NCBI GenBank assembly: GCA_030625285.1
Contig: DAOURC010000024.1
Span: forward strand, 1 to 8,171
DNA: 8,171 nt
Reading direction: 5' to 3'
Origin: Eubacteriales bacterium
GTDB taxonomy: Bacteria > Bacillota > Clostridia > Peptostreptococcales > Acidaminobacteraceae
Shown one piece after another: positions 1,891 to 7,710 of the stretch (its first letter is position 1; each line of letters begins with the position of its first letter). The notes beneath the pieces were generated by a model. It searched no databases. It was not told the DNA's origin and saw nothing but the letters and a program-made list of their open reading frames with translations. The position numbers and the translations under genes are program-made.

Positions 1891-2517
1891 TTATTTTTCT
1901 TTTAAAAAATATGAAAGTGTCAATAGACTATCAATTAAATGCACGTTTTCAACTATTATTTCTCCATTATTTATCTTAAGATCTACCGGAGTAAAATTCC
2001 ATATAGCTTTAACACCGAATTTTACCAAGTCATCTGCGACCGATTGCGCTGCGTCTTTATTCGTACAAATAAAGGCGATATCAATATTTTTGTTCTTTAT
2101 TTCTTCTTCTAGTAAATCCATATCCATAATCTCAATATCTCTAATCCGAAGTCCAGTAACTTTAGGATTGATATCAAACATTCCCTCTAATTTAAATCCA
2201 TGTGAACCAAAATTAAAATTTGCCAATGCCTGACCTAAATTACCAGCACCAATAATAATCGTGTTATAAGTTTTAACCAATCCTAAAATTTGACCAATTT
2301 CATTATATAAGTCTTCAACATTATAACCGTATCCCTGTTGCCCAAATCCTCCAAAATTAATTAAATCCTGTCGTATCTGAGAAGCAGTGAATCCAATAAT
2401 ATCACTTAGTTCTTTTGAAGAAATTCTATTGATACCATTTTCCAACATTTCTTTTAAATATCTATGATATTTTGGCAGTCTTCTGATAACAGCCATAGAT
2501 ACTTTATTATTTGCCAT
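1891..2517 (-). CDS. rex: Redox-sensing transcriptional repressor Rex
   Basis: Rex is a homodimeric repressor that binds DNA when NAD is plentiful and lets go when NADH rises. In anaerobic Firmicutes it controls fermentation and NADH-reoxidation genes. The 208-aa length is typical. The N-terminal winged helix (residues 10-60) contains the family hallmark RRLPKYHRYL and the recognition region SQIRQDLINFGGFGQQGYGY (46-65). The Rossmann domain follows, with GAGNLGQA (90-97) as the dinucleotide loop and FDINP (114-118) after the second strand. The C-terminal helix that swaps between subunits is intact (about 193-208). The ATG at 2517 is preceded by GAGGTGAT (2521-2528). A near-consensus Rex operator overlaps its -35 box, so autoregulation is expected. 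It is convergent with ferredoxin and divergent from the ABC-F gene. Confidence 0.97.
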   Translation of the reverse strand: MANNKVSMAVIRRLPKYHRYLKEMLENGINRISSKELSDIIGFTASQIRQDLINFGGFGQQGYGYNVEDLYNEIGQILGLVKTYNTIIIGAGNLGQALANFNFGSHGFKLEGMFDINPKVTGLRIRDIEIMDMDLLEEEIKNKNIDIAFICTNKDAAQSVADDLVKFGVKAIWNFTPVDLKINNGEIIVENVHLIDSLLTLSYFLKEK

Positions 2518-2585: not shown

Positions 2586-2597
2586 ATTGTATATTAC

Positions 2598-2626
2598 TTT
2601 CATTACCATATTTCCTATGCTAAAAT
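2598..2626 (+). promoter_or_regulatory. Possible extended -10 promoter of the ABC-F gene
   Basis: TGCTAAAAT (2618-2626) is an extended -10 element. The -35 position (TTTCAT, 2598-2603) is poor, which is common for extended -10 promoters. The predicted leader is only about 20 bases, leaving no room for the attenuator found ahead of many antibiotic-resistance ABC-F genes. Confidence 0.5.
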
Positions 2627-2652
2627 GTTTCTATGCTTATGGAGGTAAAAAA

Positions 2653-4551
2653 ATGATTCTAGTTACTTTGAACAACATCGTTAAATCATATGGTATCAAT
2701 ACCATATTAAATAAAATATCATTAACTATCAACACCGGTGAGAAAATCGGCATTGTCGGGAACAACGGTGCTGGAAAATCGACTTTATTCAATATCATTA
2801 CAGGTATGATTACTTTTGACGATGGTCAATTTTTTTCAGCAAAAGATATTAATATCGGGTATTTAAAGCAAGCTGATTCAACAGGAGAAAATATCAATCT
2901 ATATGATTATTGTTTGGAACCTTTCAAAAAATTAATAGATATAGAAAATAAAATGAGAAAAATTGAGAATTTATTAACAGATAATCCTTTTGACAACGAT
3001 TTGATAGATGAGTACTCAAATTTGACGGAGACTTTCACAAAGTTGAACGGTTATGCATACCATAGTAAAGCGAGAGGTGTTTTAATAGGTCTTGGTTTTA
3101 CCGAAGATGACTTCACCCGCACAATCAAAACCTTGAGCGGAGGACAAAAAACGCGACTGAATCTAGCAAAATTGCTATTGACTGAATATGATTTATTGCT
3201 TCTTGACGAACCTACAAATCACCTTGATATCGACTCGGTCAAATGGTTGGAAAATTATCTTTCAAATTACAAAGGGGCTGTTGTAATCGTCTCACATGAT
3301 AGATATTTCTTAGATAAAATCGTTACAAGGGTTCTCGAATTAGAAAGTACTATAGGAACTCTTTATAACGGCAATTACACTGAGTACATGCGCCAAAAGA
3401 GAGTTAATTATGAAACTGAAATAAAGCACTACCAAAATAATCAAAGCCTCATAAAAAAAGAAGAACAACTGATCAGAAAATATAAACAACACGGCACGGA
3501 AAAATTAGCAAAACGAGCTAGAAGCAGGGAGTTCAAACTTGAAAAAATCGAGAGAGTCCAAAAACCATTTTGGCTTAATAAGAATATCAATTTATCCTTC
3601 GATATAGGTATCCCTAGTGGTAATAATGTTTTAAGTGTCAATGAAATAAGTAAAAGCTTCGATAAAACCATTCTCTTTGATGATATTTCCTTCGAAGTTT
3701 TCAAAGGAGATAAAATTGGCTTTATTGGAAAAAACGGTATTGGTAAATCGACATTGTTTAAAATCTTAGTAAATAAAGCAAAAGCAGATTCTGGTACTTT
3801 TCAAATAGGGCATCATGTGACGAAGGGTTACTATGATCAAGATCTGCAAAATATTGAAGATAGCAATACATTGCTAGAAGAAATGCAAGTATCGCTACCA
3901 TTGGCAGATGAAACCGACCTTCGTAAGTATCTCGGTTCCTTCTTATTCACAGGTGATGATGTTTTTAAAGAAATCAGGATACTTAGCGGGGGTGAGAAAT
4001 CAAGACTCTCACTGCTCAAATTGATGCTTTCTAAAAACAATTTTCTTTTATTGGATGAGCCTACCAATCATCTGGATATCATCTCTAGAGAAACTTTGGA
4101 AAATGCAATTTTTAATTATAGCGGTACAATGTTGGCAATATCGCATGATAGATATTTTCTCAACAAAGTTTGCAATAAGATATACGAACTTGATGAAAAT
4201 GGTCTAACAATATACTTAGGTAATTATGATTATTACTTTTACAAAAAAAATCAGATGAATCAATATGCTCAAAATAATGATGAACCAATAAAAATCTCAA
4301 AAACCGAGCGTAAGGATTTATCAAAACAAGAACGTGAAAGCAAAAAAAATATTAAAGATAAAAAGAAAAAGACTGCAGATTTAGAAAAAAATATTCATGA
4401 GTTGGAATCTAGGATTTCCGAGATTCATGAATTGCAATGTCAAGAAGAAATCTACTCGAACAAATCAGAATTAATGAAAATCAATAAAGAACTTTCATCA
4501 TTGGAAGAGAAACTTGATCTAATTTATGAAGAATGGGAAAAATTATTATAG
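2653..4551 (+). CDS. ABC-F family ATPase, YdiF-like, ribosome-associated
   Basis: This is a 632-aa soluble twin-ABC protein without membrane segments. ABC-F proteins bind the ribosomal E site and act on translation. Domain 1 has Walker A GNNGAGKST (36-44), LSGGQ (161-165), Walker B LLLLDEP (181-187, catalytic E186) and the H-loop SH (214-215). A basic, helical linker (about 245-305) corresponds to the P-site tRNA interaction motif. Domain 2 has GKNGIGKST (359-367), LSGGE (444-448), LLLDEP (465-470) and SH (497-498). A lysine-rich coiled-coil tail spans about 550-632. Both ATP sites look competent. The ATG at 2653 is chosen because GGAGGT (2641-2646) precedes it and homology begins at MILVTLNNIVKSYG; an in-frame ATG at 2587 lies upstream of the predicted -10. 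The tail and B. subtilis neighbourhood favour a housekeeping YdiF type, not a resistance protein. Confidence 0.93.
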   Translation: MILVTLNNIVKSYGINTILNKISLTINTGEKIGIVGNNGAGKSTLFNIITGMITFDDGQFFSAKDINIGYLKQADSTGENINLYDYCLEPFKKLIDIENKMRKIENLLTDNPFDNDLIDEYSNLTETFTKLNGYAYHSKARGVLIGLGFTEDDFTRTIKTLSGGQKTRLNLAKLLLTEYDLLLLDEPTNHLDIDSVKWLENYLSNYKGAVVIVSHDRYFLDKIVTRVLELESTIGTLYNGNYTEYMRQKRVNYETEIKHYQNNQSLIKKEEQLIRKYKQHGTEKLAKRARSREFKLEKIERVQKPFWLNKNINLSFDIGIPSGNNVLSVNEISKSFDKTILFDDISFEVFKGDKIGFIGKNGIGKSTLFKILVNKAKADSGTFQIGHHVTKGYYDQDLQNIEDSNTLLEEMQVSLPLADETDLRKYLGSFLFTGDDVFKEIRILSGGEKSRLSLLKLMLSKNNFLLLDEPTNHLDIISRETLENAIFNYSGTMLAISHDRYFLNKVCNKIYELDENGLTIYLGNYDYYFYKKNQMNQYAQNNDEPIKISKTERKDLSKQERESKKNIKDKKKKTADLEKNIHELESRISEIHELQCQEEIYSNKSELMKINKELSSLEEKLDLIYEEWEKLL

Positions 4552-4576
4552 ACATCTTTTTAAGTTTGTATATAAT
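4549..4576 (+). promoter_or_regulatory. Predicted sigma-A promoter of acpP
   Basis: TAGACA (4549-4554) overlaps the ABC-F stop codon and is followed after 16 bases by a perfect TATAAT (4571-4576). This predicts a start near 4583 and a short leader of about 23 bases. It suggests that acpP is transcribed separately as well as by read-through from the ABC-F gene, since no terminator is seen between them. Confidence 0.6.
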
Positions 4577-4605
4577 GATATTATACTTATATAAGGGGGT
4601 AAACA

Positions 4606-4836
4606 ATGTTTGAACTTGTACAAAAAATTATTGCAGAACAGATGGGTGTAAAAGATTTAGATAGTATAACATATGATACTCATTTAGTGGATGATTTAAA
4701 TGCTGATTCAATTGATGCCGCAGAAATCATCATCGCTGTTGAAGGTGAATTTGATATAGAAATTCCGGATGATATTGCTGAAAAAATTAGAAAAGTTTCT
4801 GAAATTATGGAATTTTTGGAAAACGAATTAGAATAA
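4606..4836 (+). CDS. acpP: Acyl carrier protein
   Basis: This is a 76-aa acidic four-helix carrier that holds growing acyl chains as thioesters on a 4'-phosphopantetheine arm. The attachment serine is Ser35 in DLNADSIDAAEI (30-41), a variant of the usual DSL motif with Ile after Ser. The helix-III region EFDIEIPDDIAEKI (48-61) is typical of fatty-acid ACPs, and the length is normal. The start is supported by AAGGGGGT (4593-4600). It is not in a fab cluster: it stands alone behind the ABC-F gene with its own promoter and a strong terminator. It is most likely the housekeeping fatty-acid ACP, but a second specialised ACP elsewhere in the genome cannot be excluded. Confidence 0.93.
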   Translation: MFELVQKIIAEQMGVKDLDSITYDTHLVDDLNADSIDAAEIIIAVEGEFDIEIPDDIAEKIRKVSEIMEFLENELE

Positions 4837-4869
4837 GCCCAAAGATAAAAATCTTTAGGCTTTTTTTTT
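4837..4869 (+). terminator. Rho-independent terminator of acpP
   Basis: GCC plus AAAGAT (4837-4846) pairs with ATCTTT plus GGC (4851-4860) with a single C-A mismatch and an AAAA loop, followed by nine T residues (4861-4869). It starts at the base after the acpP stop codon. Confidence 0.9.
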
Positions 4870-4895
4870 ATAAAATTAATTTAACATTTTAAATT

Positions 4896-5043
4896 TAATC
4901 CACATTTTCTGTGGATTGAATTTCCACATTCAAAAGATAGATATAGCAAGTTTTATATAAGTTATCCACTTCATCCACAGTCTAATCCACATTTTTTTCA
5001 ACATTTTTTAGTTTACATAATATTTACTCGGTTTTTATCCACA
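4896..5043. promoter_or_regulatory. Cluster of DnaA-box-like nonamers, possible DnaA-binding locus
   Basis: The consensus DnaA box is TTATCCACA. One perfect copy lies at 5035-5043, two bases from the tsaD stop codon. One-mismatch copies lie at 4896-4904 (TAATCCACA), 4962-4970 (TTATCCACT), 4971-4979 (TCATCCACA) and 4983-4991 (TAATCCACA). All five are on the plus strand, and 4962-4979 is an exact head-to-tail pair. Two-mismatch copies are at 4910-4918 (minus strand), 4920-4928 and 4995-5003. The left flank (4861-4898) and 4992-5030 are very AT-rich. The gap lies between convergent genes, so promoter control is unlikely. A DnaA titration or reactivation site, or less likely part of an origin, is the best reading; DnaA binding is inferred. 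Confidence 0.68.
4897..4917. repeat. 8-bp perfect inverted repeat made of two DnaA-box cores
   Basis: AATCCACA (4897-4904) and TGTGGATT (4910-4917) are exact reverse complements separated by TTTTC. It could form a small hairpin or place two DnaA monomers in opposite orientation. No T-tract follows on the minus strand, so it does not look like a tsaD terminator. Confidence 0.7.
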
Positions 5044-5045
5044 GA

Positions 5046-6056
5046 TTAAAGTTTTAAATTTGGCACAGAATTTAAATCGAGATTTGCGAATATACCCTTT
5101 TTAAATTGATAATATGCAGCCGCCCCGATCATCGCTGCATTATCAGTGCATAAACTCATCGGAGGATAAAAAACATCTAAATAATGAATTTCAGCTTCCT
5201 CTTTCAATCTCTTTCTTAGGTGAGAATTCGCAGCAACACCACCTGCAATAATAATTTCTTTATGATTCATTTTCAATGAAGCCTTAATAATTTTTTCCAC
5301 TAAAACATCTACAACCGCTTCTTGAAAAGATGCAGCTACATCATTAGCGTTGATTTCAATCCCTTTCATTTTCATGCTATTCAAATAATTCAAAACAGCA
5401 GATTTAATACCAGAAAAACTGAAATCAAAAGAGTCTTTTTCAAGATATGTCCTTGGAAATTTTATAGCTTCTTTATTCCCATCTTTTGCAGCTTTATCGA
5501 TGTACGGTCCACCTGGATATGGAAATCCTAGAGTTCTAGCTACCTTGTCAAACGCTTCACCCACCGCATCGTCTCTTGTTCTGCCTAGCACTTCATACTC
5601 TCCATAATCCAATACATCAATAATATGAGTATGCCCACCAGAAACAATCAAAGCAATATACGGCGGTTTCAAATCCGGAAACGCAAGATAGTTTGCAGCA
5701 ATATGACCATCTATATGATTGACTGGAATAAGTGGAATCCCCAGCCCAAACGCCAACGCTTTCGCATAGCTCATTCCAACCAATAAAGCACCTACAAGAC
5801 CGGGTCCATATGTTACTGCAATGGCATCTAAATCGCTAAAATTCAAACCGCTTTCTTCTAATGATTGAGTAAATATCAGATCAATTTTTTCAATATGCTT
5901 CCTCGATGCAATTTCGGGCACCACTCCACCAAATTTTTTATGTAAATCTATCTGAGTATAAACTACATTAGATAGGATCTCTCTACCATTTTTTATAACC
6001 GCAACAGAGGTTTCATCACAGCTTGTCTCTATTGCCAAAATAATTATATCTTTCAT
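5046..6056 (-). CDS. tsaD: tRNA t6A threonylcarbamoyltransferase TsaD
   Basis: TsaD transfers the threonylcarbamoyl group from TC-AMP to N6 of A37 in ANN-decoding tRNAs, working with TsaB and TsaE in the cytoplasm. The 336-aa length is normal for this Kae1/Gcp family. ASKHA-fold motifs are clear: [13 protein letters not shown] (8-20), the metal-binding HIDGH (His114 and His118), the phosphate-binding SGGHTHI (139-145), GGVAANS (272-278) and TDNAAMIG (304-311) with metal ligand Asp305. No key residue is missing. The ATG at 6056 follows AGGAGA, and the rimI stop codon TAG overlaps that ribosome binding site, leaving only 11 bases between the genes. It is the last gene of the tsaE-tsaB-rimI-tsaD operon. 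No clear terminator follows; transcripts would run into the DnaA-box cluster. Confidence 0.97.
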
Positions 6057-6067
6057 CTGTTTTTCTC

Positions 6068-6526
6068 CTAATCTTCACCGTTTGAATTCATCCACATAAG
6101 CAGAGCATCTTCATTTGTATCCGTATAGTATTTCTTTCTTCTTCCCTCTACGCTAAAACCAAATTTCGAATAAAGTTCTTGAGCTATGATATTCGACTCT
6201 CTTACTTCAAGGGTAAACATATGAACTTCTAATTTTTTCATTTCACCAAGCACATAACTCACTAATTGTTTTGAATAACCTTTTCCTCTATAATCAGGAT
6301 CTATCGCAACATTTGTTATATGACCCTCATCGAGTATTTTCCATATCCCCATGTAACCGACAAGAGTATCATCAACTCCAACAACATAATAATAAGCAGC
6401 TGAATTATCATTTATTTCTTGGTAAAAAGAAGCTTTTGACCACGGCATCGAGAATGATTTTTTTTCTATCTCGTAAATCTCATCTACATCATCAAATGCC
6501 ATCTCTCTGACAATCACTTTAGTCAT
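6068..6526 (-). CDS. rimI: Protein N-alpha-acetyltransferase RimI (GNAT family)
   Basis: RimI uses acetyl-CoA to acetylate protein N termini, classically that of ribosomal protein bS18. Counted from the chosen start it has 152 aa, matching the usual size of about 150. Strand 4 and the pyrophosphate loop are intact in [19 protein letters not shown] (70-88), with the R-G-K-G-Y-S loop at 80-85. Glu107 (TLEVRESN) and Tyr119 (ELYSKFGF) match the general base and acid known for the Salmonella enzyme. ATGs at 6544 and 6556 are in frame; 6544 has a GAAGAGAT motif ahead of it. I prefer 6526 because homology with other RimI proteins begins at MTKVIVREM. That start overlaps the tsaB stop by eight bases (ATGACTAA), suggesting translational coupling. 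Confidence 0.9.
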
Positions 6527-7220
6527 CAAAAACACTCTTTCCATGAATCTCTTCATAACTAGTTTCAGCTTGAGATTTTCTGACGTAGTTCGGTTTTATG
6601 ATTTTACCAAATTCTCTATTCCTAGAAACATACGCCACTGAAGAAGGTCTTGGAATTCCTAGATTGAATGCAACTAATTGAATATCACTATTATTCATAG
6701 CCTTGATCCTATCATAAAACTTATCCGCATCAGGTCCCGCCAATAATATGGATTCATCATACTTTTCAATTCTATCGATGAACTCATCTATCGATATTGC
6801 CATATCAGGCGTTAATCTAATCAACTCGTCATTTTCAAATTTAAAAAACGCTGTATATATTTGATCTCTTCTTGCATCTTGCATAGGACATATTATTCCA
6901 TTAAAACCCTTATTATTCATCGCCAACGCTTCAAGAGTTGAAATCCCAGCCATAGGGATATCCTTAGCACGAGATAAACCTAGAGCGGTAGCCATACCTA
7001 TTCTAACTCCTGTAAAAGAACCCGGACCTATTGTAACAGCTATCCCATCAATCTCATCTAGTGTCATATCCAGATTTTTAAATACTTGATCGATAATCAC
7101 CATCAATTTCTGCGAATGGGTAATATCATTATTTATAACAATCTCACTTTTTAACACTTCATCCTCTATAATTGCAACTCCCGCAGTTTGAGTAGATGCA
7201 TCAATCCCTAAAATTTTCAT
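6519..7220 (-). CDS. tsaB: tRNA t6A biosynthesis scaffold protein TsaB
   Basis: TsaB is an inactive TsaD paralogue that dimerises with TsaD and bridges it to TsaE in the t6A complex. The 233 aa include the ASKHA N-terminal half: MKILGIDASTQTAGVAI (1-17), THSQKLM (34-40) and the hallmark GPGSFTGVRIGMATALGL (66-83). The family region CPMQDARRDQIYTAFF follows at about 111-126. As expected for TsaB, the metal-binding HxxxH of TsaD is absent. The ATG at 7220 is preceded by GGAGGA (7226-7231). The gene overlaps the end of tsaE by 20 bases and the start of rimI by eight, so the three are read as one unit. Confidence 0.96.
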   Translation of the reverse strand: MKILGIDASTQTAGVAIIEDEVLKSEIVINNDITHSQKLMVIIDQVFKNLDMTLDEIDGIAVTIGPGSFTGVRIGMATALGLSRAKDIPMAGISTLEALAMNNKGFNGIICPMQDARRDQIYTAFFKFENDELIRLTPDMAISIDEFIDRIEKYDESILLAGPDADKFYDRIKAMNNSDIQLVAFNLGIPRPSSVAYVSRNREFGKIIKPNYVRKSQAETSYEEIHGKSVFDD

Positions 7221-7650
7221 AGTGTTCCTCCAAATCCATTCCTGTTATTTCAATTAATCGCTCATCAATATTATCAGTATATAAAATTTTTATCCATATA
7301 GCGTCTTTAGGAATGATTTCCTCAATAATATCTGCCCATTCAATAATCATTATTGCATCTTGATTCAAATAATCATCAAAACCTATTTCAAACATCTCAT
7401 CTACATCATTAATCCTATATACATCGAAGTGAAAGACTTTCTTAGGATGATGATACTCATTGACGATAGTGTATGTTGGACTTGTTATATATTCTTCAAT
7501 CCCAAGTCCTTTCATGATCGACTGAGTCAAAGTAGTTTTTCCTGCTCCTAAATCGCCTGTTAAACATATAATCGATTTCTCTTTAAGTTTTTTTGAAATT
7601 ATATTTCCAAGAGCTTCAGTTTCTAAAAGACTTTTAATCTTAAGTTTCAT
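7201..7650 (-). CDS. tsaE: tRNA t6A biosynthesis ATPase TsaE
   Basis: TsaE is the P-loop ATPase that binds the TsaB-TsaD pair and is needed for multiple turnover of t6A synthesis. From the chosen start it has 149 aa, normal for YjeE/YdiB proteins. Walker A is GDLGAGKT (32-39), followed by the conserved switch SPTYTIVNEY (57-66), HFDVYRI (74-80) and the Walker B-like region IIEWAD (102-107). The ATG at 7650 is chosen because GGAGGA (7660-7665) lies ten bases upstream and homology begins there. An in-frame ATG at 7686 would add 12 residues (MIKVSVNGGIFF), has no good ribosome binding site and overlaps the possible -10 box. It is the first gene of the t6A operon. Confidence 0.95.
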   Translation of the reverse strand: MKLKIKSLLETEALGNIISKKLKEKSIICLTGDLGAGKTTLTQSIMKGLGIEEYITSPTYTIVNEYHHPKKVFHFDVYRINDVDEMFEIGFDDYLNQDAIMIIEWADIIEEIIPKDAIWIKILYTDNIDERLIEITGMDLEEHYENFRD

Positions 7651-7681
7651 AAAAAAAATTCCTCCATTTACAGATACCTTT

Positions 7682-7710
7682 ATCATACATCAGTTTAACA
7701 GATTTAAAAA
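7682..7710 (-). promoter_or_regulatory. Possible promoter of the tsaE-tsaB-rimI-tsaD operon
   Basis: On the minus strand TATGAT (7682-7687) is a good -10 box; 17 bases upstream lies only a weak TTTTTA (7705-7710), which is also the T-tract of the peroxiredoxin terminator. The placement right after that terminator and about 25 bases before the tsaE ribosome binding site is sensible, but the -35 match is poor. Confidence 0.33.

Follow-up and report, generated by a model that had tools for sequence, protein, structure and literature searches.

A DnaA-box array behind tsaD recurs across much of the Bacillota and is probably a non-origin DnaA control site

Introduction

A cluster of DnaA boxes lies directly behind tsaD in a bacterium of the Acidaminobacteraceae (Eubacteriales; assembly GCA_030625285.1), and arrays of the same kind recur behind tsaD in other Bacillota, with a recurring set of distances between the boxes. 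The array is probably a conserved DnaA-binding control site outside the origin, which would likely titrate ATP-DnaA and so delay re-initiation at oriC, a reading drawn from comparison of sequences. It seems to be a further case of a known kind of site, and the depth of its conservation and its spacing rule appear to be new. The titles and abstract openings returned by a literature search held no report of tsaD-array conservation beyond Bacillus subtilis, and Okumura 2012 may cover close Bacillus species; PMC12371093 covers Escherichia coli and one Salmonella, and the word Bacillus is absent from it.

The array and its gene neighbourhood

The stretch of DNA analysed here (the window; 8,171 nucleotides, contig DAOURC010000024.1) is the entire contig C119 of a 1.06-Mb metagenome assembly that is 63% complete. 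From its low end upwards it carries a gdh fragment, an ORF with no NCBIfam match and rex (all on the minus strand), followed by genes for an ABC-F ATPase and acpP (both plus), the gap that holds the array, then tsaD, rimI, tsaB and tsaE (all minus) and a peroxiredoxin fragment. Family matches confirm that tsaD and acpP had been called correctly; the gap between them is convergent. By eye, acpP stands between the array and the ABC-F gene in the window and its nearest relatives, and is absent from that place in the Bacillus-type genome G188. The ORF with no NCBIfam match (681-1502, P-loop) looks, on inspection by eye, like an ORF located close to a different DnaA-box array, in genome G197 (L300, 30-605).

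A motif search of the window for TTATCCACA with at most one mismatch (a good box; copies with two mismatches are termed weak) returns five boxes within 148 bp, all on the plus strand (Table 1). The cluster described in an earlier note on this DNA is real, with one exact box, four one-mismatch boxes and a head-to-tail pair at 4962-4979. Its placing of the boxes on the plus strand holds for all five good boxes and for two of the three weak ones; the weak box at 4910-4918 is on the minus strand. A reading of the array as a hairpin or terminator was rejected because the inverted repeat at 4891-4923 is not conserved in G001 (same genus) or G003 (same family). No Rfam family reaches its gathering score anywhere in the window. 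A promoter was rejected as well, a scan giving 4 sites where 4.2 were expected.

Table 1. Features of the array and of the genes around it (window coordinates)
Feature	Coordinates	Strand	Remarks
DnaA-box array, core of the finding	4896..5043	+	TTATCCACA on the plus strand, TGTGGATAA in the tsaD sense; array kept downstream of tsaD
Exact DnaA box	5035..5043	+	Starts at the third base past the tsaD stop (tsaD sense); same place in G001 and G003
DnaA box, 1 mismatch	4983..4991	+	12 bp to next box
DnaA box, 1 mismatch	4971..4979	+	Head-to-tail pair, first member in the tsaD sense
DnaA box, 1 mismatch	4962..4970	+	Head-to-tail pair, second member (9 bp)
Weak DnaA box, 2 mismatches	4920..4928	+	Exactly 42 bp past the pair, a recurring offset; 1 mismatch here in G001
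DnaA box, 1 mismatch	4896..4904	+	Final good box in the tsaD sense; exact in G001
Weak box, 2 mismatches	4910..4918	-	Opposite orientation; inverted repeat with 4891-4904, not kept in G001 or G003
Weak box, 2 mismatches	4995..5003	+	Retained in G001 and G003 (TGTTGAAAA in the tsaD sense)
tsaD (gcp), anchor gene	5046..6056	-	TIGR03723, 451.6 bits; array begins at third base after the stop
acpP, convergent neighbour	4606..4836	+	Gene call confirmed
Hairpin and T run ending acpP	4835..4869		Stem listed on the minus strand; T run on the plus strand read from the sequence; outside the box array
ABC-F ATPase, ydiF counterpart	2587..4551	+	Convergent neighbour in the B. subtilis-type arrangement
rex, ydiH counterpart	1891..2517	-	Near the array in Bacillus-type genome G188 too
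rimI, tsaB, tsaE, remainder of the tsaD operon	6068..7686	-	Order as in Bacillus-type genome G188

Conservation downstream of tsaD

An array was counted where at least three boxes fall in 150 bp, within 600 bp past tsaD. It is present in 39 of 56 relatives, in 89 of 148 genomes of a phylum-wide sample that is biased to high-scoring tsaD (199 genomes were searched, and the 148 are those examined besides the genome of the window, G000), and in 23 of 75 named loci, a set skewed to Lachnospiraceae (80 loci less five with short downstream DNA, including one Atribacteria record, which is without an array). Some species possibly stand in two sets. Among the relatives tsaD was found in 59 of 61 genomes, of which 57 were examined (without G031 and G033) and one was dropped for having less than 300 bp downstream. 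By the same criterion no set yields a single array for the reversed box or for either of two scrambles, and other places around the gene are nearly empty: 2 of 266 for the last 600 bp of tsaD, 0 of 266 for its first 600 bp, 3 of 249 at 600-1200 bp downstream, and 0 of 136 for the 600 bp upstream. The positional conservation that the earlier note proposed is thus upheld by a comparison of the gaps downstream of tsaD, as conservation that is patchy in genus, family, order and phylum.

In the window, G001 and G003 the boxes lie at +3, +55/56, +67/68, +76/77 and +142/143 past the tsaD stop, and in the gap alignment the islands of identity are the boxes. In more distant relatives the block is displaced and its inner spacing often kept. 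In G012 a block of five boxes lies 644-752 bp past tsaD. Named carriers include Alkaliphilus, Thermovorax, Sporomusa, Brevibacillus, Kroppenstedtia, Saccharibacillus, Paucisalibacillus, Amphibacillus, Halolactibacillus and Bacillus sp., and by class the named loci with an array number 9 of 12 in Bacilli, 12 of 53 in Clostridia, 1 of 5 in Negativicutes, 0 of 1 in Tissierellia and 1 of 4 unranked.

There is no array within 600 bp of tsaD in 128 of the 279 loci, and about 40% of the phylum sample is without one. No array was found behind tsaD in Listeria, S. aureus, Enterococcus, Paenibacillus cellulosilyticus or Acetoanaerobium, in any of the 12 loci titled Lachnospiraceae that have enough downstream DNA, or in any of 11 records selected to represent other phyla, E. 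coli included. Sixteen records were chosen from the 60 plasmid-collection matches listed. On a FastTree phylogeny of 260 TsaD proteins (139 with an array), which like the counts of neighbouring genes below predates the addition of the last 19 phylum loci, presence of the array requires 41 changes, compared with 86.5 for shuffled labels, and at least 24 of the 41 are forced by well-supported branches. Such counts do not distinguish loss from gain; with 41 changes needed, a single origin followed by many losses is an assumption.

That chance or base composition made the array is so improbable as to be negligible. It could be argued from the AT-rich, low-complexity flanks and from the abundance of one-mismatch boxes in the genome, which as a whole is not box-rich: its 365 boxes (at most one mismatch; 0.05 expected per 148 bp) barely exceed the 343 matches of the reversed motif. 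Permuted boxes already refute it, as 60 of them gave arrays at a mean of 0.28 and at most 10 of the 279 loci, and conservation with constrained spacing contradicts it too. So do shuffled sequences: the densest 148-bp stretches contained three boxes at most, both in 3,000 dinucleotide shuffles of positions 4501-5500 and in 300 shuffles of the window as a whole, compared with the five observed, which bears out the claim that the density is beyond chance.

A narrower pattern, ATCCACAN{1,31}ATCCACA, occurs at two places in the window's own genome, the array and C16:3732-3747. The complete relative G013 has a sole match of ATCCACAN{1,31}ATCCACA, its tsaD array, which is also the only exact-box pair within 150 bp among 34 places listed. 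G001, G003, G017 and G029 have further close exact-box pairs, at oriC, at a recU-like gene and elsewhere.

A spacing rule

Across the sets the distances that recur between boxes are 9, 12, 21, 42-43, 51, 54 and 63 bp. In the 109 genomes with a 9-bp pair, a further box stands 12 bp from the second member in 30 genomes, at 42 in 20, at 43 in 18, at 44 in 11 and at 45 in 4, with more boxes around 54, 64 and 74; offsets 39 and 41 occur once each, and no box occurs at offsets 13-38, 40 or 46-50. The box at +42 in the window is a weak one. A degenerate box at +12 was found in 20 of 51 genomes at no more than three mismatches, the mean there being 4.57 mismatches, compared with 5.7-7.3 at other offsets from 9 to 32. 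Helical phasing of the boxes comes to about 10.75 bp with a vector strength of 0.49, a purely descriptive value uncorrected for relatedness.

A genome-wide search for exact boxes arranged as a pair plus a third box, with the gap left free from 10 to 40 bp, returned 10 places in 199 genomes and none for the reversed pattern; the offset is 41-45 in nine of them and 23 in one (binomial P 6e-7). Three of the places are tsaD arrays (G098, G178 and G145), one lies just downstream of dnaA (G221) and six lie elsewhere. Since the spacing recurs away from tsaD, the layout is general to DnaA arrays of the phylum and the tsaD site is not unique in having it. Modules away from tsaD were seen in G096, G158, G138, G095 and G250 (L326-L329, L331), with their neighbours read as ORFs.

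The spacer that separates the pair from the box at 42-45 is richer in AT than its own locus in 43 of 54 cases. Spacers often read as an A-tract, GG and a T-tract mid-way, a pattern that a bending protein could recognise. The idea that the spacer carries a conserved protein site was rejected, as all that was found is the AT bias, the degenerate box at +12 and this vague tract pattern.

Position relative to dnaA

The distance from tsaD to dnaA was computed for 19 of 30 genomes, all with both genes on one contig (G084 also qualified and was left out), and there the two genes lie 0.10-0.47 of the contig apart, with a median of 0.19. The earlier note had offered part of an origin as its alternative, and these distances argue against it. 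That the array belongs to a second replication origin is very improbable: the gap is AT-rich with clustered boxes, and the G221 place beside dnaA has the same 9 + 44 spacing; against this, tsaD lies at the distances just given, relatives carry separate box clusters beside dnaA, and in B. subtilis the counterpart is remote from oriC (PMC4447404). In the 63% complete assembly of the window dnaA itself was not found, the search giving one weak match under the cut-off. The motif RDHTTV, in which D, H and T are residues that contact the box (PMC7561715), is kept in five DnaA proteins (those of four relatives and G188), with S replacing the first T in that of G013.

Orientation and the link to tsaD

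The boxes follow the direction of tsaD, with 183 boxes in its sense and 15 opposed in one count, and 396 and 36 in another. The gene is on the leading strand in 18 of the 19 genomes, and in the exception, G094, where it is on the lagging strand, the boxes are still oriented with it.

The gene beyond the array varies. Neighbouring ORFs were chosen by length, at least 100 amino acids, and small genes such as acpP are therefore skipped. So defined, the next ORF is an ABC-F gene in about half of 58 arrays from the relatives and named loci (the ABC-F C-terminal domain is present in 27); in 76 arrays of the phylum sample it is Lgt in 22, a radical SAM protein in 18 (DUF512 in 13), 5-FTHF cyclo-ligase in 14, ABC-F in 5 and others in the remainder. 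The array can be called linked to tsaD, as the earlier note had it, because the neighbouring gene changes while the array remains. Regulation tied to a particular neighbour was rejected, since the neighbour families vary.

There is a small chance that the array is a transcription switch or roadblock operated by DnaA, which would either halt or adjust transcription running on from the tsaD operon, or govern expression of the following gene. Transcriptional regulation by DnaA is known at sda and other places (PMC4447404), and the direction of the boxes tracks tsaD even in G094. Moreover, the next ORF is co-directional with tsaD in 66 of the 76 phylum-sample arrays, often starting close behind the array, so that a promoter role is possible there. 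Against such a switch, the window and 26 of 37 arrays of relatives have a convergent next ORF (as do 12 of 23 named and 10 of 76 phylum-sample arrays), which in the window and those relatives leaves DnaA without an adjacent promoter on which to act; in addition, the neighbour family varies while the array stays, and acpP carries a terminator-like hairpin of its own.

Other DnaA-box clusters

A search of 30 genomes, the majority assembled into one to three contigs, found 43 places with exact same-strand pairs spaced by no more than 28 bp (one for the reversed control). Thirteen of these, in 11 genomes, are tsaD arrays, and the rest lie beside dnaA or elsewhere. A second cluster, repeated in the window's own genome (G000:C16:3730-3820, L001) and in its nearest relatives (L068, L072 and L075), stands just upstream of a recU-like gene, with ksgA/rnmV close by where these were seen (names from translations). 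Its layout is of exact boxes 82-83 bp apart with one head-to-tail neighbour, and it is possibly a promoter under DnaA control. Arrays with 9 + 42/43 or 12 + 9 spacing were seen beside comFC-like and/or hpf/raiA-like genes (names from translations) in three Bacillota genomes (L298, 2018-2077; L303, 2044-2134; L329, 2002-2062), and are perhaps another conserved address. In two relatives, box clusters lie upstream of or near a lipoprotein gene of the same type, BtuF-like by eye (L069, 176-292; L073, 2185-2321).

Proposed function

The mechanism proposed for the array is capture of DnaA. Head-to-tail boxes at 9 and 12 bp would nucleate a cooperative filament of ATP-DnaA; the roughly 30 bp lacking good boxes ahead of the box at +42-45 would be bent, perhaps by HU, allowing the far box to join the complex; and passage of the fork would duplicate the array part-way through replication, lowering free DnaA. 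The bend and the role of HU are conjecture. In B. subtilis, deletion of six non-origin clusters leads to early initiation, and putting one cluster back gives partial relief (PMC5295017). The array is read as a DnaA sink because of this deletion effect and because its head-to-tail boxes, nearly all pointing one way, fit a cooperative filament. A distance from dnaA of up to 0.47 of the contig speaks against a sink, being odd for one timed by gene dosage.

Catalysis of the kind described for datA, in which the DNA would bend at the spacer and bound ATP-DnaA would hydrolyse its ATP, is an unlikely alternative to simple titration. In E. coli, datA acts through ATP-DnaA on boxes flanking a bend and requires the bending site between them (PMC5742627); the tsaD arrays likewise keep the interval from the pair to the box at 42-45 free of good boxes, and the gcp/ydiF site strongly prefers ATP-DnaA (PMC4447404). 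Against this, B. subtilis is without IHF (PMC13220808), and no B. subtilis regulator is known to turn DnaA-ATP into DnaA-ADP (PMC5295017).

A broader proposal is offered tentatively, as one that could well fail. The array may descend from one ancestral control element that predates the divergence of Bacilli, Clostridia and Negativicutes, namely a directional DnaA complex at the 3' end of tsaD with an obligatory layout (pair, weak box at +12, bent spacer, box at +42-45) that would be a Gram-positive answer to datA; lineages that lost it (Listeria, Staphylococcus, Lachnospiraceae) would then control initiation differently.

A site kept at one gene, with one type of spacing, across much of a phylum is a site about which selection cares. 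Recent reviews give the B. subtilis non-origin DnaA clusters little weight, with datA and DARS absent there (PMC5295017, PMC13220808). The present comparison shows which species have the site and which lack it, and supplies a spacing rule that experiments can deliberately violate; these make Gram-positive control of DnaA through chromosomal sites directly testable.

Comparison with known systems

The earlier note had pointed to a B. subtilis cluster near gcp and ydiF, and this matches region 4 of an in vitro map of DnaA binding, given as 'downstream of gcp; downstream of ydiF' with 10 sites (PMC4447404). The gap binds ATP-DnaA with a Kd of 0.15 µM and ADP-DnaA with one of 0.33 µM, and DNA recovery at 55 nM was 16-fold higher with ATP-DnaA; only the eight strongest regions were readily detected in vivo, gcp/ydiF being among them by Table 1 of that study (PMC4447404). 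B. subtilis is represented in the comparison by G188, a complete-looking genome whose gene order suggests that it is close to that species: thiL-tsaE-tsaB-rimI-tsaD-array-ABC-F-moaC-rex-tatA-tatC (names read from translations). Further exact-box clusters of G188, for example between yqeG and sda and beside a YrdC-domain (ywlC-like) gene, match DnaA sites of B. subtilis (PMC4447404).

Gene order and array in G188 indicate that the window array and the B. subtilis site share an address, apart from acpP, and the former would be the counterpart of the latter. Common to both are the order tsaE-tsaB-rimI-tsaD facing ABC-F with rex nearby, a convergent gap, several boxes in a cluster outside oriC at the 3' end of tsaD, and a core of 9 then 42 bp, found at 67/76/118 in the window (the last with two mismatches) and at 156/165/207 in G188. 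The two differ in their box sequences and in that binding was measured in B. subtilis only; furthermore, the window array does not lie directly between tsaD and a convergent ABC-F gene, as acpP intervenes, and the likeness therefore rests on the place behind tsaD and on the spacing, and does not extend to the exact gene pair.

With the bipartite oriC of Bacillota the array shares the box and, through the G221 place downstream of dnaA, the 9 + 44 layout; it differs in that the window array is not beside dnaA or dnaN.

E. coli datA and the array are both non-coding DnaA-box clusters outside oriC that likely lower active DnaA, which for the array is predicted from its boxes. They differ in location, with no boxes within 1200 bp behind E. 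coli tsaD. The E. coli K-12 boxes at 4392677-4392926 are presumed to be datA from their position near 4.39 Mb; they lie (L288, 4386000-4400000) about 2.7 kb from tsaE, while the Bacillota array lies behind tsaE-tsaB-rimI-tsaD, which is probably a coincidence. DARS1 and DARS2 of E. coli have a fixed core arrangement of boxes in common with the array. Those sites reactivate DnaA, whereas gcp/ydiF of B. subtilis prefers ATP-DnaA, a preference that speaks for capture and not for nucleotide exchange.
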